Numbered from the stretch's first letter, positions 1 to 6,113 are shown. The stretch is DNA of 6,182 bases from Candidatus Sumerlaeota bacterium (GCA_007136585.1 SLGR01000252.1:1-6182), one strand, 5' to 3'. Program-made: numbers and translations. Notes: generated by a model from the sequence alone, not told the origin.

Positions 1-527
1 AAATCCACCTGCCACTGGAAAATATTCGCGAAATTCATTATTGTCGTCGGATCAGTTATTCCGCTTCCGGCAAGAGCGGCGTAGAGGCTCGTCTGCACTT
101 CTCCGGTCAAGGCCGCGAGTCGTTCTTCTATCTCGGGGGTCTGTTCATACGCGGTAAGACCCGCGCTGCTTCTTTCCACCACGTAATCAGTAAGCGGGTC
201 GGGGTTAAAGACGAATTTAAGAGCAGCTCCGTAAGTAGTGTGGTAGAGGCGATAATTGTCTCCGGGGCGTATGCGCCTGGAGCTGTAGATATCTTCCAGC
301 CTGCGGGTCAGTGAAAGGGTCTCCTGCGCGGGAAGTTTTCTCGCCAGCTCATTATACAGGGATCCCCGGGGCGGAATCTCACCTTCGGATATAAGTATTT
401 TCTTTCCTTCACGCAAAGGATAAAGACTGCTCCCCGCCCTTAAAGATAGAAGCAGTACCAGGGCCAGGCATCCCCCGGCTGCAGCGGCCTTGATGAGCGT
501 ATTTTTAATTCTCCAGGTATATTTCAT
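1..527 (-). CDS. M23-family murein endopeptidase (MepM/OapA-like), N-terminal part
   Basis: Partial: 175 codons are visible from ATG 527-525 and the reading frame stays open to the window edge. The N-terminus has a basic start (MKYTWRIK) and one hydrophobic stretch at about residues 11-29 (KAAAAGGCLALVLLLSL), fitting an uncleaved anchor or signal peptide. Residues 55-118 resemble the LysM/OapA-like domain that precedes the peptidase in MepM/Csd3-type proteins (LEDIY...IRPGDNYRLY). The best marker is residues 141-176, with SLYAAL followed by IFQWQVDF, which matches the conserved block just before the M23 catalytic domain. The catalytic HxxxD and HxH zinc motifs would lie beyond the edge and cannot be checked. 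Known family role: zinc-dependent cleavage of peptidoglycan cross-links in the periplasm. It is transcribed divergently from the membrane protein at 684. No clear Shine-Dalgarno sequence precedes the ATG. Confidence 0.8.
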   Translation of the reverse strand, partial: MKYTWRIKNTLIKAAAAGGCLALVLLLSLRAGSSLYPLREGKKILISEGEIPPRGSLYNELARKLPAQETLSLTRRLEDIYSSRRIRPGDNYRLYHTTYGAALKFVFNPDPLTDYVVERSSAGLTAYEQTPEIEERLAALTGEVQTSLYAALAGSGITDPTTIMNFANIFQWQVD

Positions 528-558
528 AAAAATAAAAGCAGAACAGGCAGAGTCTGCT
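528..558 (-). terminator. Terminator-like hairpin in the leader of the M23 gene (possible attenuator)
   Basis: On the minus strand AGCAGA (558-553) can pair with TCTGCT (542-537) across a 10-nt loop. TTTATTTTT (536-528) follows and runs directly into the ATG. An alternative 7-bp pairing is AAAGCAG with CTGCTTT (563-557 and 541-535). The stem is short and only half GC, so it is weak as a terminator. It lies between the proposed promoter and the start codon, so it could act in the leader RNA or be chance. Confidence 0.25.
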
Positions 559-584
559 GCTTTATGAGTCTCTTTAATAAGATT

Positions 585-612
585 CTTATACATACTGAAG
601 CGGTTTTGTCAA
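585..612 (-). promoter_or_regulatory. Sigma70-type promoter for the M23 gene
   Basis: Reading the minus strand, a perfect TTGACA -35 box (612-607) is followed after 16 bp by TATAAG (590-585), five of six matches to the -10 consensus. Transcription would start near 578, giving a leader of about 50 nt before the ATG at 527. This is one of the two best housekeeping-type promoters in the window. Confidence 0.6.
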
Positions 613-683: not shown

Positions 684-3122
684 ATGAGAAAGAAAACAGG
701 GCTTATTATTAAAAAGCTTTCGCCTCTTGCCGCTCCGGTTATGATGCTGGGGGTCATATCCCAGATAGGCCAGGTGCTTATTCTCAGGGAGCTTATGATG
801 GTCTTTCAGGGGAGTGAGGTTTCCATAGGGATAATCCTGGGCGCCTGGATGGTATGGACTGGAACAGGGAGTATCCTCGGGGGGGTTCTCGCGGAGAGAA
901 CCTCAAGACCCGGGGTTATCCTTCGTATCAGCGCCGTTATCGGGTTTTTGCTCATACCTTTAACGGTCGCTTCGGCCCGGCTGATCCGCGGTTTTTTCAA
1001 CCTTCTCCCCGGGACATACCTTTCTCTTTCGGAAATGGCTCTGGCCTCTTTTGCGGTAATGGGCCCTGCCTGTCTTATTATAGGGGCCCAATTTGTTCTC
1101 CTTGCGAAGCTATGGAGGCGTAAGGATAAATCCCGCGGATCCGAGGGAGCCGGAAAGACCTACGCCGGCGAGGCGGCGGGAAACCTGGCCGGGGGCGTTA
1201 TATTTACTTTTCTTCTGGTAAGGTATATTGACCCTCTGCTGATTTCGGTTCTTGTCGCGGGGTTTATGCTTTATTCTGTCTTTCACCTGACCTCGTCGTC
1301 CCCGCGGCGTACGGCAAAAGCGGTTTTACCCGTTCTTCTGGGTGCGGTCATACTGTTTATCCCGTTTAGTTCCGCCCTTGAAACCCGGCTTTACAGGGCC
1401 AAGTGGGGGGATCTTGCCCCCGGGCACACCCTGGAAGGGGTCTATAACTCAAAACACGGAGTCATATCCGTCCTTGAAAGGCAGGGGCAGTACAGTTTCT
1501 TTCAGAGCGGGCACCTGGTCTTCAGCACCGCGGGGCCCGGTACGCTCCGGACGGGTATGGAGGAGCAGGAGGCGGTGATCTTCGCCCATACGGCCCTTTC
1601 CCAGCACAGGGATCCCCGCAGGGTGCTCCTCATTGGGGGAGGGATGCGAGGTATACTCGCCGAGCTTGTAAAGTACCCCCTGGAAAGGATTGATTACGTG
1701 GAACTTGACGAGAGGCTCATAAAAGTGGCCCGCCCATACCTTTCCGGGGAGAGTATCAGGGCGCTTTCGGATGAAAGGGTAAGGGTGATTCACACCGACG
1801 GAAGGCGTTTTGTGAAGAGTTACCGGGGGGAGTCCTATGACCTTATTATAGCCGATATACCGGATCCGGCGACGGCGGTATTAAACAGATTTTATACCGG
1901 CGAATTTTTCCGGGAGGTCCGTTCAATCCTTGACAGAAGCGGCGTCTTTGTTACAACAGCGGTTTCAATGCCGGACCTGCGGGGGGTAGCGGTTACAAAC
2001 CGGAACGCGGCGATCTACCATACCCTTGCCGGGGTATTTAAGAGGGTTCTGCCGGCCGGGGAGAGGCATCTCTTCTTCTTTGCCGGGGATGACCCCGGCC
2101 AGCATACCCTTGAGGCCGGGGTTCTCAGCCGCAGGTTCGCAGAAAGGGGTATAGAGGCGGAAGGGTTCTCTCCTCATCATTTTTACACCCTTTTAGAGGA
2201 CTCCCACCTGCGAAGGATGAACTGGGTTTTGAGAAACCACGGGCGCCGCCCGGAGGCGCACCTGGAAGGCCCCGGCAGAAGCCCCGCCTTTCCGCCGCCT
2301 CTGAAGGAGCAGGAACTTACGGAGAAGGAACTTCCCCCGGTTATTGAAAGGTATTTCATTAACTCGGATTTCAGGCCGATAGGGTACTATTACACTCTTA
2401 TGTTCTGGGAGAGGCTTACCGGAACCGGCCGGGAGAGTTTCAGGAGGATACTGGAGGCCGAACCCCGGCGCGCGATTTTTCTTTTTATACTGGCCCCCCT
2501 GGTAGCAGCGGGGCTGAGGGTCTTTACACCGGGGAGCAGGAAGAGGCCCGAGACGCGTTTCGGGGTGCTCTTCGCGGTTTTTACAACGGGGCTTTCAACA
2601 ATGGCTCTTCAGATAGCCCTGATATTTTCTTTCCAGAACATTTACGGGTTTGTATACGAGATGATAGGGCTTATAGCGGCTATCTTTATGTTCGGCCTCG
2701 GCCTCGGGGCTCATCTTTCAAACCGGTATGTGCGCGATAAGGCAAACCTCCGGCTTCTGGCCCTTATGCAGGCCCTTATAGCGGGTTTTGCCTTTCCGGC
2801 GGCTTACCTGCTCCCGGCCGCTGCCGGGATACCTTCTCCCACCGCGGTATTTGGGGTCTTTGCGACTCTTACTTTCACGGCCGGGCTTGTAAACGGTTTT
2901 GATTTTCCCCTGGAAGCGGCCTGCTATCTCCGTGCGGGGGGAAACCCTGAGAGATCCGCCGGGGCGGTTTACGGGACAGAGCTTTTCGGGGCCTGCGCGG
3001 GATCGGTTCTGGCCGGCGCGGCGGTGGCCCCGCTGATGGGTATATCCGCCTGCTTCCTCCTGGCCGGCCTTGCGGCCTCTTCTGCTTTTCTGGTATTATT
3101 AATATGCAGAGGAACGTCGTGA
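684..3122 (+). CDS. Polytopic membrane protein with central spermidine-synthase-like SAM-binding domain
   Basis: 812 residues, matching the layout of proteins annotated as fused MFS/spermidine synthase. About seven hydrophobic helices lie in residues 14-230, a soluble Rossmann domain in about 240-510, a proline-rich linker near 525-555, and about seven helices in 596-806. The soluble domain shows the SAM-binding loop GGGMRG (318-323), the acidic pair E340/D342 after strand 2 (YVELDE), D372-G373, and the catalytic-type motif ADIPDP with D391 and D394. Aspartate of the usual GGGDG loop is replaced by M321, so true aminopropyl transfer is doubtful; methyl transfer or another SAM-dependent role is possible. 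The two membrane halves repeat a small-residue motif (YAGEAAGNLAGG at 160-171, YGTELFGACAGS at 763-774). Arginine/lysine-rich loops suggest the N-terminus is inside and the Rossmann domain outside. ATG 684 lacks a strong ribosome site. The gene overlaps the next by four bases. The family is clear, the substrate unknown. Confidence 0.85.
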   Translation: MRKKTGLIIKKLSPLAAPVMMLGVISQIGQVLILRELMMVFQGSEVSIGIILGAWMVWTGTGSILGGVLAERTSRPGVILRISAVIGFLLIPLTVASARLIRGFFNLLPGTYLSLSEMALASFAVMGPACLIIGAQFVLLAKLWRRKDKSRGSEGAGKTYAGEAAGNLAGGVIFTFLLVRYIDPLLISVLVAGFMLYSVFHLTSSSPRRTAKAVLPVLLGAVILFIPFSSALETRLYRAKWGDLAPGHTLEGVYNSKHGVISVLERQGQYSFFQSGHLVFSTAGPGTLRTGMEEQEAVIFAHTALSQHRDPRRVLLIGGGMRGILAELVKYPLERIDYVELDERLIKVARPYLSGESIRALSDERVRVIHTDGRRFVKSYRGESYDLIIADIPDPATAVLNRFYTGEFFREVRSILDRSGVFVTTAVSMPDLRGVAVTNRNAAIYHTLAGVFKRVLPAGERHLFFFAGDDPGQHTLEAGVLSRRFAERGIEAEGFSPHHFYTLLEDSHLRRMNWVLRNHGRRPEAHLEGPGRSPAFPPPLKEQELTEKELPPVIERYFINSDFRPIGYYYTLMFWERLTGTGRESFRRILEAEPRRAIFLFILAPLVAAGLRVFTPGSRKRPETRFGVLFAVFTTGLSTMALQIALIFSFQNIYGFVYEMIGLIAAIFMFGLGLGAHLSNRYVRDKANLRLLALMQALIAGFAFPAAYLLPAAAGIPSPTAVFGVFATLTFTAGLVNGFDFPLEAACYLRAGGNPERSAGAVYGTELFGACAGSVLAGAAVAPLMGISACFLLAGLAASSAFLVLLICRGTS
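3108..3113 (+). promoter_or_regulatory. Ribosome binding site that decides the GTG start of the AmrS-like gene
   Basis: AGAGGA lies 5 nt upstream of GTG 3119-3121 and inside the end of the preceding gene. The upstream in-frame ATG at 3104 has only AT-rich sequence before it (TATTATTAAT) and no Shine-Dalgarno match. GTG shares three bases with the TGA stop of the membrane protein gene (GTGA, 3119-3122), the usual arrangement for translational coupling. Confidence 0.65.
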
Positions 3123-4291
3123 CTGAGAGAAAAACAGATAAAAAAAATATAGGGCGCAGGGAGTTTCTGAGGTCCGCCGCCTCAGGGGCCTGCGCCGTCG
3201 GACTGGCTGCTTTTGCCGGGAAATGCGCCCTTGCGGCCTCATCGCAGACTTCTCTGGAAGGGGCCCGGAAAGGACTTGTAAAACCCCGTAAGGGGGACTG
3301 GTATGAGCCCCTGGAAAAGAGGAAACTCAGGTGCGGGCTCTGTCCCCGGGAGTGCGTACTTTCACCCGGTGAGAGGTCTCCCTGCCGGGTCAGGGAGAAC
3401 CGGGACGGGTCTCTGTATACCCTTGCTTACGCCAACCCGGCGCTTATCCAGGAAGATCCTATAGAGCGTAAACCTTTCTTTCACGTCCTTCCCGGTTCAA
3501 GAGCTCTATCGGTATCTACGGCCGGGTGCAACCTGGAATGCAAGTTCTGCGAGGTCTGGGATATGGCACTTGCCGCTCCCGAGGAGGTCTACTCTTACGA
3601 GGTTCCTCCGGAAAAGGTTGTCGGCTACGCTCTGAAATCCAAACTCCGCTCTGTAAGCTACGCATTCGGCGAACCCGTGGTGTTTTACGAGTATATGAAG
3701 GAGACCGCCTCACTGGCCGCCGGGGAGGGGCTTCTTAACCTCATCCATACGGCCGGGTACATAAACCCCGGCCCCCTTGAGGAGCTTTCCGGTTTTCTTG
3801 ATGCCGCCAACGTTGACCTGAAAGGGTTTGACGGGGATTTCTACCGCGATGTCGCCGGCGGGGAGCTGGATCCGGTGCTTGATACGCTCAGGACCCTTAA
3901 GAGAAAAGGGGTACACCTTGAGATTACAAATATCCTTATACCTTCCCTTAATGACAGCAGGGACGATATAAGGAAAATGTGCGACTGGATAGCCTCCGAG
4001 CTGGGCCCGGATGTCCCGCTTCATTTTGCCAGGTTCTACCCGCTTTACAGGCTCTCCCGGCTTCCAAGGACCCCGGTCTCCGCCCTTGACGAAGCCAGGG
4101 AAACGGCCCGTAAATCCGGGCTCAAATATGTTTACGTTTCAAGGGTAACCGGACACGAGGGGGAGAATACCTTCTGCCCCTCGTGCGGGGAGAAGATAAT
4201 AAACCGTATAGGGTTTGTAGTTGACAGCGTAAAGATATCGGACGGGAAATGCGCCCGGTGCGGTGAGGGTATCCCCGGTATATGGGGGTGA
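3119..4291 (+). CDS. amrS: Tat-exported AmmeMemoRadiSam-system radical SAM enzyme (AmrS-like)
   Basis: 390 residues from GTG 3119; ATG 3104 would add five. The N-terminus is a Tat signal: R13-R14 in GRREFLRS, an alanine/glycine-rich stretch (19-34) and a likely cleavage site after A37-L38-A39. The mature protein has a cysteine group C72-x2-C75-x3-C79 with C89, then the radical SAM motif C137-x3-C141-x2-C144 (CNLECKFC) for the SAM-cleaving 4Fe-4S cluster. The central blocks AYANPALIQEDPIERKP, NVDLKGF, ITNILIPSLND and LHFARFYPLY are typical of the AmmeMemoRadiSam family. Two C-terminal CxxC pairs (C353/C356, C378/C381) resemble a zinc ribbon. In that family the enzyme is linked to an AMMECR1-domain protein and a Memo-domain protein; neither is in this window, and I do not infer a substrate. 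Its stop abuts that of the convergent radical SAM gene. Confidence 0.87.
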   Translation: MTERKTDKKNIGRREFLRSAASGACAVGLAAFAGKCALAASSQTSLEGARKGLVKPRKGDWYEPLEKRKLRCGLCPRECVLSPGERSPCRVRENRDGSLYTLAYANPALIQEDPIERKPFFHVLPGSRALSVSTAGCNLECKFCEVWDMALAAPEEVYSYEVPPEKVVGYALKSKLRSVSYAFGEPVVFYEYMKETASLAAGEGLLNLIHTAGYINPGPLEELSGFLDAANVDLKGFDGDFYRDVAGGELDPVLDTLRTLKRKGVHLEITNILIPSLNDSRDDIRKMCDWIASELGPDVPLHFARFYPLYRLSRLPRTPVSALDEARETARKSGLKYVYVSRVTGHEGENTFCPSCGEKIINRIGFVVDSVKISDGKCARCGEGIPGIWG

Positions 4292-4294
4292 TCA
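4289..4294. other. Abutting convergent stop codons (TGATCA)
   Basis: The plus-strand gene ends with TGA at 4289-4291 and the minus-strand gene ends with TGA at 4294-4292. No base separates them, so there is no intergenic terminator. Transcription from either side must end inside, or run antisense to, the opposite gene. Confidence 0.9.
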
Positions 4295-5353
4295 GCGCAG
4301 CATACGCCGGAACCTCTCAAGCCTGGACTCGGACCTCGCGTCAAGGTTTTTAAGCCCGGCCTCCCTCGCCCAGCGTATGGCTTCTTCAAACTCTTCAGCG
4401 GTTATCGCGCGGGCTATCTTATCGTACTCAAAAGCCCTGTGCTCCACCCTGTACTGCGACATTATGTTGACGTAGGTCTCTTCTGAAAGGTTCTCCGCTA
4501 CCCATTTTACAAACTCACGGGTCCCCGCCACCCGGTTGGGCATCACAAGATGACGGAGCATAAGGCCCCGTAAGGCTATACCGGCGGAATCTGTCTGAAG
4601 GTCTCCCACCTGGCGGTGCATCAGTATAACGGCCTTGCGGGCCCGCTCAGGGTAGTCCCTGGCCCCTGTAAATACATACTTGTCAGCGTACTCCCCGTCC
4701 ATGAACTTAATATCCGGGAGGTATATATCCACTATCCCGTCAAGGAGTTCTATGCACTCTTCTGTCTCGTACCCGCCCGTATTGTAGCAGAGCGGCAGGT
4801 GAAGTCCTTTTCCGTGAGCGATATTTACTGCCTTCAGAATAAAGGGCATCATATGGGTCGGGGTTACCAGGTTTATATTATGGCAGCCCCTCCGCTGAAG
4901 GCTGAGCATTAAATCGGCAAGTTCGTCGTTACTTACCCTCCGTCCCCGCCCCTCGTGGGCTATGGGCCAGTTCTGGCAGAAGACGCACCTGAGGTTGCAG
5001 TGCGAGAAAAATATGGTCCCAGATCCGTTCCGGCCGACAAGTGGAAGTTCCTCCCCGAAATGTGGGCTTGAGCTGTGAACCACAGCCTCGGCGCCGGCCC
5101 GGCAGAACCCCGTCTGCCCCCTGAGCCGGTTGACTCCGCATTTATGGGGACAGAGGTCGCAGTTCTCAAGTTTCGCCCAGGCCTCTTCAATACGCCCGGA
5201 GAGATCCCCTTTCTTTTTCATCTTCTCATACCCCGGAGTTGATGATTTAACCGCATTCCTCCGAGATCCGGCCCCCAGGGCCCTGGTTCCGAGAAAAGTC
5301 CCTCCGGCTGCCAGCGTGATTGATTTTATAAAATCTCTTCTTGTAAGTTTCAC
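4292..5353 (-). CDS. Tat-exported radical SAM enzyme, PflX-like (COG1313 family)
   Basis: 353 residues from a GTG start (5353-5351). The N-terminus carries a Tat signal: R5-R6 in LTRRDFIKS, a hydrophobic stretch (SITLAAGGTFLG) and a possible cleavage site near A25-L26-G27. A cysteine group C65-x2-C68-x3-C72 with C84 precedes the radical SAM motif C119-x3-C123-x2-C126 (CNLRCVFCQNW). GSGTIFFSHCN, HNINLVTPTHMMP, YNTGGYE, DIYLPDIKF, RQVGDLQ and the late MSQYRVEHRA block are hallmarks of proteins annotated as putative pyruvate formate-lyase activating enzyme, PflX type. No glycyl radical enzyme lies nearby, so that name should not be taken as the function. A cytoplasmic form could start at ATG 5221 (M45), after the Tat region and before the cysteines. 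TAAGGG lies 9 nt before the GTG. The family has no firmly known substrate that I can name. Confidence 0.85.
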   Translation of the reverse strand: MKLTRRDFIKSITLAAGGTFLGTRALGAGSRRNAVKSSTPGYEKMKKKGDLSGRIEEAWAKLENCDLCPHKCGVNRLRGQTGFCRAGAEAVVHSSSPHFGEELPLVGRNGSGTIFFSHCNLRCVFCQNWPIAHEGRGRRVSNDELADLMLSLQRRGCHNINLVTPTHMMPFILKAVNIAHGKGLHLPLCYNTGGYETEECIELLDGIVDIYLPDIKFMDGEYADKYVFTGARDYPERARKAVILMHRQVGDLQTDSAGIALRGLMLRHLVMPNRVAGTREFVKWVAENLSEETYVNIMSQYRVEHRAFEYDKIARAITAEEFEEAIRWAREAGLKNLDARSESRLERFRRMLR

Positions 5354-5553: not shown

Positions 5554-6113
5554 TTGAAAAGAACAAAGACTTTCAGCACCTGGGATATAGCAAAGCTCCT
5601 TGAAGTATACCCCAGCACCGTGACCGCTGGATAAAGAACGGCGAGCTTGAGGCATTCAGGACCCCCGGAGGTCATTTCAGGGTAGCCCAGGAAGACCTAA
5701 GGTCATTTGCCTCCGGGCAGGGTATTGAACTTGAGAAACTCTATTCCGGAAAAAAAATACTCGTAGTTGAAGATGATCCGGCTGTAATGAAGGTGATAAG
5801 CACGGCTCTTGAGAGGAGTTTCTCCCGATACAGTCTTATTTTATCTTCCGACGGGTTTGATGCCGGTATTAAGTTCAGCGAACAGACCCCGGAACTTATC
5901 ATCCTTGACCTGATGCTTCCCGGAATGGACGGGTTTGAGATATGCCGGAATATAAGAAAGAAGGATAGCTCGGTTCGGATACTTGCCGTTTCAGGGTATC
6001 CCACAAAAGAAAATATTGAAAAGATAAGAGAAGCCGGGGCCGATGATTTCCTTCCCAAGCCTTTTGACGTAAAGGATTTTGTAAGGCGCGTTTCCGATCT
6101 TCTTGAGAGATGA
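5554..6113 (+). pseudogene. HTH (excisionase/MerR-type) plus receiver response regulator, frameshifted
   Basis: Read as one protein of about 186 residues after restoring a base near 5625/5626. The first frame, from TTG 5554, gives 24 residues (FSTWDIAKLLEVYPSTVT) and then hits TAA at 5632. The next frame continues exactly where the family should, with WIKNGELEAF and RTPGGHFRV, completing an excisionase/MerR-type helix-turn-helix. A receiver domain follows at about 67-186: acidic E73-D74-D75, phosphoacceptor D119 (LIILDLMLPGMDG), S147 and K169 (LPKP). A missing C in what would read ACC-CGC-TGG (restoring R25) explains the break. ATG 5787 could start the downstream part, but it would lack strand 1 and the acidic pocket, so that fragment is unlikely to work. 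A weak AAGAAG lies before the TTG. A strong promoter precedes it and a membrane protein overlaps its end. Either a recent mutation or a sequence error fits. Confidence 0.75.

Follow-up and report, generated by a model that had tools for sequence, protein, structure and literature searches.

Radical SAM enzymes depend on S-adenosylmethionine (SAM) and on low-potential electrons, both of which are known only from the cytoplasm, and the locus described here raises the question of whether such enzymes could also be at work outside the inner membrane. The window, that is the whole 6,182-nucleotide (nt) stretch of DNA analysed, is one entire contig (SLGR01000252.1:1-6182) of a draft Candidatus Sumerlaeota genome (GCA_007136585.1; 1.88 Mb, 88% complete). 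An earlier note on this DNA had proposed that three adjacent genes with SAM-type binding motifs, two of them bearing RR-type twin-arginine translocation (Tat) signals, make up an extracytoplasmic module. The open reading frames (ORFs) sit exactly where that note had placed them, and both observations were borne out: PF01564 is found in the membrane protein, here called MEM, and PF04055 in the two enzymes, AMRS and PFLX, whose RR motifs (GRREFL and TRRDFI) are each followed by a hydrophobic stretch. The AMRS ORF overlaps that of MEM by 19 nt and is convergent with PFLX, with no gap between the two. We suggest that the three proteins probably constitute one extracytoplasmic SAM-dependent system. 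Its location at the outer face, which we infer from the export signals and the predicted membrane topology, is the best-supported step and very likely, and a joint function of the three proteins is likely.

By sequence, AMRS and PFLX are members of the radical SAM superfamily. PF04055 is above its cut-off in both, and their SAM-side motifs, like the cluster motifs, are invariant. AMRS passes the TIGR04337 (AmrS) model with 336.5 bits against a cut-off of 220, and the same model matches 35/35 AMRS members. The fold of PFLX resembles that of pyruvate formate-lyase activase (PflA), and the protein resembles PflX/COG1313.

Tat signals were called by pattern, as a hydrophobic stretch preceded by RR, KR or RK. 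Such a sequence occurs in 74 of 78 AMRS N-termini, and RR with a hydrophobic segment in 49 of them, against 0.45 expected in shuffled N-termini. The corresponding figure for PFLX is 42 of 64 automatically trimmed N-termini, against 0.2 in shuffles; most of the others were trimmed too far downstream, RR or RK is visible there, and nearly all PFLX bear a signal. The NCBI Tat model TIGR01409 matches 16 of 28 PFLX, with the window's own protein below the cut-off (13.9 against 16.7). A lipobox-like motif is present in 23 AMRS and 17 PFLX. According to the earlier note, homologues without RR motifs in most genomes would refute the module; Tat motifs are in fact kept in most AMRS and PFLX. Among the AMRS/PFLX pairs of 63 loci, an imperfect motif was seen in 19 AMRS and 12 PFLX and never in both at one locus (3.6 expected; P 0.008, ignoring relatedness), so that KR or RK on one enzyme is always paired with RR on the other. 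This complementarity is not phylogenetically independent, as nearly all of the non-RR PFLX belong to one Bacillota-centred group, and it would fit co-export but reflects few independent events. It is possible that AMRS and PFLX leave the cell together as a complex.

The distribution of TatC adds support for export of the two enzymes. TatC is present in the window's genome, and when the loci were traced to their module genomes, 43 of 46 had it. In the window's phylum, where the test is based on only 16 genomes, all incomplete, tagged PFLX occurs in three, scoring 627-648 bits where no other match exceeds 354, and TatC in four, including all three with tagged PFLX. The tagged form is therefore found in 3/4 genomes with TatC and in 0/12 without it (Fisher P 0.007). 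Untagged PflX paralogues, which do not have the N-terminal extension, are present in most of the 16.

MEM passes NF037959, the fused MFS/spermidine synthase model (MFS, major facilitator superfamily), with 53.4 bits against a cut-off of 40, and also matches PF01564 Spermine_synth. An AlphaFold2 model based on 52 aligned sequences (pLDDT, the predicted local distance difference test, 91; pTM, the predicted template-modelling score, 0.91) reproduces the arrangement that the earlier note had described, with seven helices, a soluble region at residues 245-590 and seven further helices, and the basic loops listed in that note all fall on the 'in' side. When the N-terminus is taken as inside, the lysine and arginine count across 59 MEM homologues is 22.4 in the 'in' loops against 2.6 in the 'out' loops, and the direction is the same in 59/59. 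A cytoplasmic position for residues 240-590, which would have counted against the module, is the opposite of what model and loop charge indicate, and the spermidine synthase-like (SpdS-like) domain is predicted to face outside. In structure comparisons the helical part resembles MFS transporters, with Z 28.7 for SV2A over 357 residues and Z 24.5 for NorC, and the inserted domain matches the aminopropyltransferase fold (Z about 26). SV2A has an extracytoplasmic (luminal) domain between transmembrane (TM) helices TM7 and TM8.

An acidic residue in the GxG(D/E)G motif is required for the use of decarboxylated SAM (PMC10349129). In 59/59 MEM homologues this position is occupied by L, M, F or I, and the Asp pair (391, 394), E340 and D372 are retained in the domain. 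The gene speD (PF02675) was not found in the window's genome, which is 88% complete; it is absent from 29 of 44 module genomes, that genome included, and present in 15. The fungal 7TM-SpdS protein NHMT (N-terminal histidine methyltransferase), which resides in the endoplasmic reticulum and methylates secreted lytic polysaccharide monooxygenases, has Ile at the same position (PMC10349129). Because of the lost acid, the frequent absence of speD and the precedent of NHMT, SAM is a likelier ligand than decarboxylated SAM, and judging from the motif it is probably what the domain binds. The lost acid together with the missing speD speaks against MEM as a true spermidine synthase (SpeE). The results favour binding or consumption of SAM by MEM at the outer face over transport of SAM; transport, and with it the earlier note's suggestion that MEM could supply SAM there, we regard as rather unlikely.

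Table. Positions of the three genes and of their predicted signals, domains and motifs in the window
Feature	Position (nt)	Strand	Basis
MEM, 812-aa MFS-fold membrane protein with inserted spermidine synthase-like domain	684..3122	+	NF037959, PF01564, structure model
MEM helices TM1-TM7 (aa 16-244)	729..1415	+	AlphaFold2 model
SpdS-like, putatively SAM-binding domain (aa 245-590), predicted outer face	1416..2453	+	AlphaFold2 model, loop charge, fold matches
GGGMRG (aa 318-323), GxG(D/E)G motif with acidic residue replaced	1635..1652	+	alignment with SpeE
DIPDP (aa 391-395), retained Asp pair of aminopropyltransferase fold	1854..1868	+	alignment with SpeE
MEM helices TM8-TM14 (aa 594-808)	2463..3107	+	AlphaFold2 model
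AMRS, 395-aa radical SAM enzyme, TIGR04337 (AmrS) family	3104..4291	+	curated cut-off passed
Tat-type signal of AMRS (aa 1-46; RR aa 18-19, nt 3155-3160)	3104..3241	+	TIGR02811 TAT match, E 4e-4
CxxxCxxC cluster motif of AMRS (C142, C146, C149), invariant	3527..3550	+	alignment
PFLX, 353-aa radical SAM enzyme, PflX/COG1313-like, GTG start, convergent with AMRS	4292..5353	-	PF04055, PflA fold
CxxxCxxC cluster motif of PFLX (C119, C123, C126), invariant	4976..4999	-	alignment
Tat-type signal of PFLX (aa 1-27; RR aa 5-6, nt 5336-5341)	5273..5353	-	pattern, TIGR01409 in family

The neighbourhood itself proved to be conserved; its absence would, by the earlier note, have refuted the module. A scan of 84,980 genomes with AMRS as query, which favoured close relatives, left 80 loci, and in about 66 of these the three genes occur together in the order and orientation of the window; several of the remainder break off at a contig edge. 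Identity to the window is 46-54% for MEM, 52-65% for AMRS and about 58-69% for PFLX. No fourth conserved neighbour was seen in up to 10 kb of flank, and large clusters in the flanks were dismissed as shadow ORFs. The window also holds, at 5555-6113 (+), a helix-turn-helix and receiver-domain (PF00072) gene, apparently split in its helix-turn-helix part by a frameshift near 5623-5629 which is either a sequencing error or the mark of a pseudogene, and, at 3-593 (-), a gene truncated at the contig end, the partial product of which weakly resembles a peptidoglycan endopeptidase (ShyC).

By the taxonomic labels in draft-genome titles, the loci span 15 NCBI-labelled groups, at least 14 of them phyla. 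The AMRS tree requires 22 changes of label, against a minimum of 14 and 53.6 for shuffled labels. As the tree follows the labels mostly but not fully, the module must have been in these lineages for long and has probably also been transferred on some occasions. Judged by record names, 69 of 78 AMRS loci come from soda lakes, 61 from Kulunda Steppe and 8 from Cariboo metagenomes. Two Kulunda surveys yielded 871 genomes (PMC6146748) and 1032 genomes (PMC6704655), which puts the soda-lake share of the collection at about 2-3% at most. The binomial tail for the enrichment is about 1e-101, a figure to be read with the non-independence of the loci and the bias of the scan towards close relatives. 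Loci from elsewhere include marine sediment; others, from their names, are presumably from serpentinising and deep-lake sites. That the module is concentrated in soda lakes, across bacteria of many phyla, suggests a common adaptation of the cell envelope to alkaline, reducing habitats.

Related genes occur in other arrangements. The window's genome has a second MEM-like (MFS-SpdS-like) gene beside another RR-bearing AmrS (L082, G000:C194), which carries a TRRRFLFYL membrane segment, and a third, untagged AmrS (L084). A further group of Tat-tagged PFLX directly adjoins MEM-like genes at four loci (L145, L146, L147 and L149). In the first three of these, two small membrane proteins precede the operon of MEM-like protein and Tat-tagged PFLX, and one of the two, tested in L145, is a nucleoside-recognition (Gate) protein; from a reading of the neighbours, L145 and L147 presumably lie near cobalamin genes. 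It is possible that this operon handles nucleoside products of SAM. As they are adjacent in at least three arrangements, MEM-like proteins seem to be tied to RR-bearing radical SAM enzymes. In another phylum, 17 of 395 genomes have a long-form PFLX (587-623 bits; next match 469), and all 17 of these proteins carry RR. In 13 of these genomes, the two source loci being counted, AMRS lies next to it. Within the regions fetched, MEM was not seen near this Tat pair, with the exception of a protein 30% identical at L078.

Taking these results together, we propose that AMRS and PFLX would fold around [4Fe-4S] clusters in the cytoplasm and then be exported by Tat; in many hosts a lipid anchor would hold them, as lipoproteins, to the outside of the membrane. 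The SpdS-like domain of MEM would be on the same side and, as in NHMT, would most likely bind SAM and not decarboxylated SAM. We infer a common substrate, exported or in the membrane, which the three proteins would modify by methyl or alkyl transfer combined with radical chemistry. That the MFS pore of MEM passes SAM or its products is a guess, as is the idea that the reduced, alkaline environment provides the reductant. A high pH lowers the hydrogen couple, and cluster reduction outside may therefore, speculatively, be feasible in alkaline habitats; some of the hosts belong to aerobic genera. In its fullest form the proposal is a complete extracytoplasmic radical SAM pathway, in which the MFS-SpdS protein would deliver SAM to the outer face, or keep it there, for use by the two Tat-exported enzymes, with electrons from strongly reducing, alkaline surroundings. 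We hold this only tentatively, as something that may well prove not to be so. If true, it would run counter to the rule that keeps radical SAM chemistry within the cytoplasm or the interior of organelles.

Several points weigh against an extracytoplasmic system. We know of no SAM pool outside the cytoplasm, and the high pH of soda lakes makes SAM unstable. The Tat calls were made by pattern, and KR or RK stands in many of the AMRS signals. Most of the 17 genomes mentioned above have the Tat pair without MEM in the regions read, and MEM is therefore not an absolute requirement. The taxonomy could also be blurred where draft genomes contain binning errors.

Among other explanations, the one that survives best is a narrower version of the same proposal, in which MEM does in bacteria what the 7TM methyltransferase does in fungi, methylating exported proteins that are also substrates of the radical SAM enzymes, and SAM arrives by some other route. 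The order of seven helices followed by an SpdS-like domain and the loss of the acidic residue are as in NHMT, but MEM has a second seven-helix block and an MFS fold which NHMT does not, and no methylated target is known; overall we consider this somewhat unlikely. It could also be that the enzymes leave the cytoplasm preloaded with SAM and a reduced cluster, perform one turnover or none outside and serve mainly as Fe-S or binding proteins, with MEM an independent transporter. Tat does export folded, cofactor-loaded proteins, and both the want of a known external SAM pool and the Tat pairs without a nearby MEM would be accommodated. However, this would leave the invariance of the SAM-side and cluster motifs, and the linkage of an outward SpdS domain to Tat-tagged radical SAM genes in several separate arrangements, difficult to explain, and it appears improbable. 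MEM as an outward aminopropyltransferase, using decarboxylated SAM to make polyamines at the surface of the cell, would suit PF01564, the fold match and the retained Asp pair, but the acid is gone in 59/59 and 29 module genomes, the window's among them, have no speD, which makes it very unlikely. That both enzymes stay cytoplasmic, with RR segments that are vestigial or serve as membrane anchors, as the KR or RK of several AMRS might suggest, is equally hard to credit given the lipoboxes downstream of the signals, the restriction of the tagged form to genomes with TatC and the coexistence of untagged paralogues of the same family.

An extracytoplasmic system of MEM, AMRS and PFLX is the reading we prefer, and a conserved exported pair with an outward membrane partner raises testable questions, namely whether SAM crosses the inner membrane or acts outside it, and whether radical SAM enzymes can be reduced there. 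The protein families involved are numerous. In the open-access literature of PubMed Central (PMC), subscription papers lying outside the search, no publication on exported radical SAM enzymes was found, the work on NHMT was the sole relevant precedent, and the phrase 'periplasmic radical SAM' does not occur in its papers; nor, judging by titles and abstracts, is there a paper in it about the function of AmmeMemoRadiSam.

AMRS shares with AmmeMemoRadiSam (TIGR04337, AmrS) the model itself and the same cluster and C-terminal Cys motifs, but it has a Tat-type signal and its partners are MEM and PFLX. The classic AmmeMemoRadiSam trio was rejected as the identity of the locus: Memo was not found in the window's genome (88% complete) and is inconsistently present among module genomes (28/44). 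AMMECR1 is encoded elsewhere in the window's genome and in 34 of the 44. PFLX is like PflX-like proteins (COG1313) in PF04055 and its PflA-like fold, and untagged paralogues align with it over most of their length at about 40-46% identity; it differs in an N-terminal Tat signal of about 40 residues which the common paralogues do not have. With fused MFS/spermidine synthases (NF037959; PRK03612/COG4262) MEM has in common the family cut-off, the MFS fold and the SpdS-like domain, whereas its domain is inserted between two seven-helix blocks, has lost the acid for decarboxylated SAM and is encoded beside radical SAM enzymes with export signals. The membrane fold of MEM is that of SV2A and other MFS transporters, from which it differs in having as its insert, by predicted structure, a SAM-binding enzyme fold. 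Likened by architecture and not by sequence alignment, fungal NHMT (PMC10349129) resembles MEM in placing an SpdS-like domain after seven TM helices and in the hydrophobic residue of its GxG(D/E)G motif, but it stands without a second seven-helix block and without the radical SAM partners that accompany the bacterial protein.

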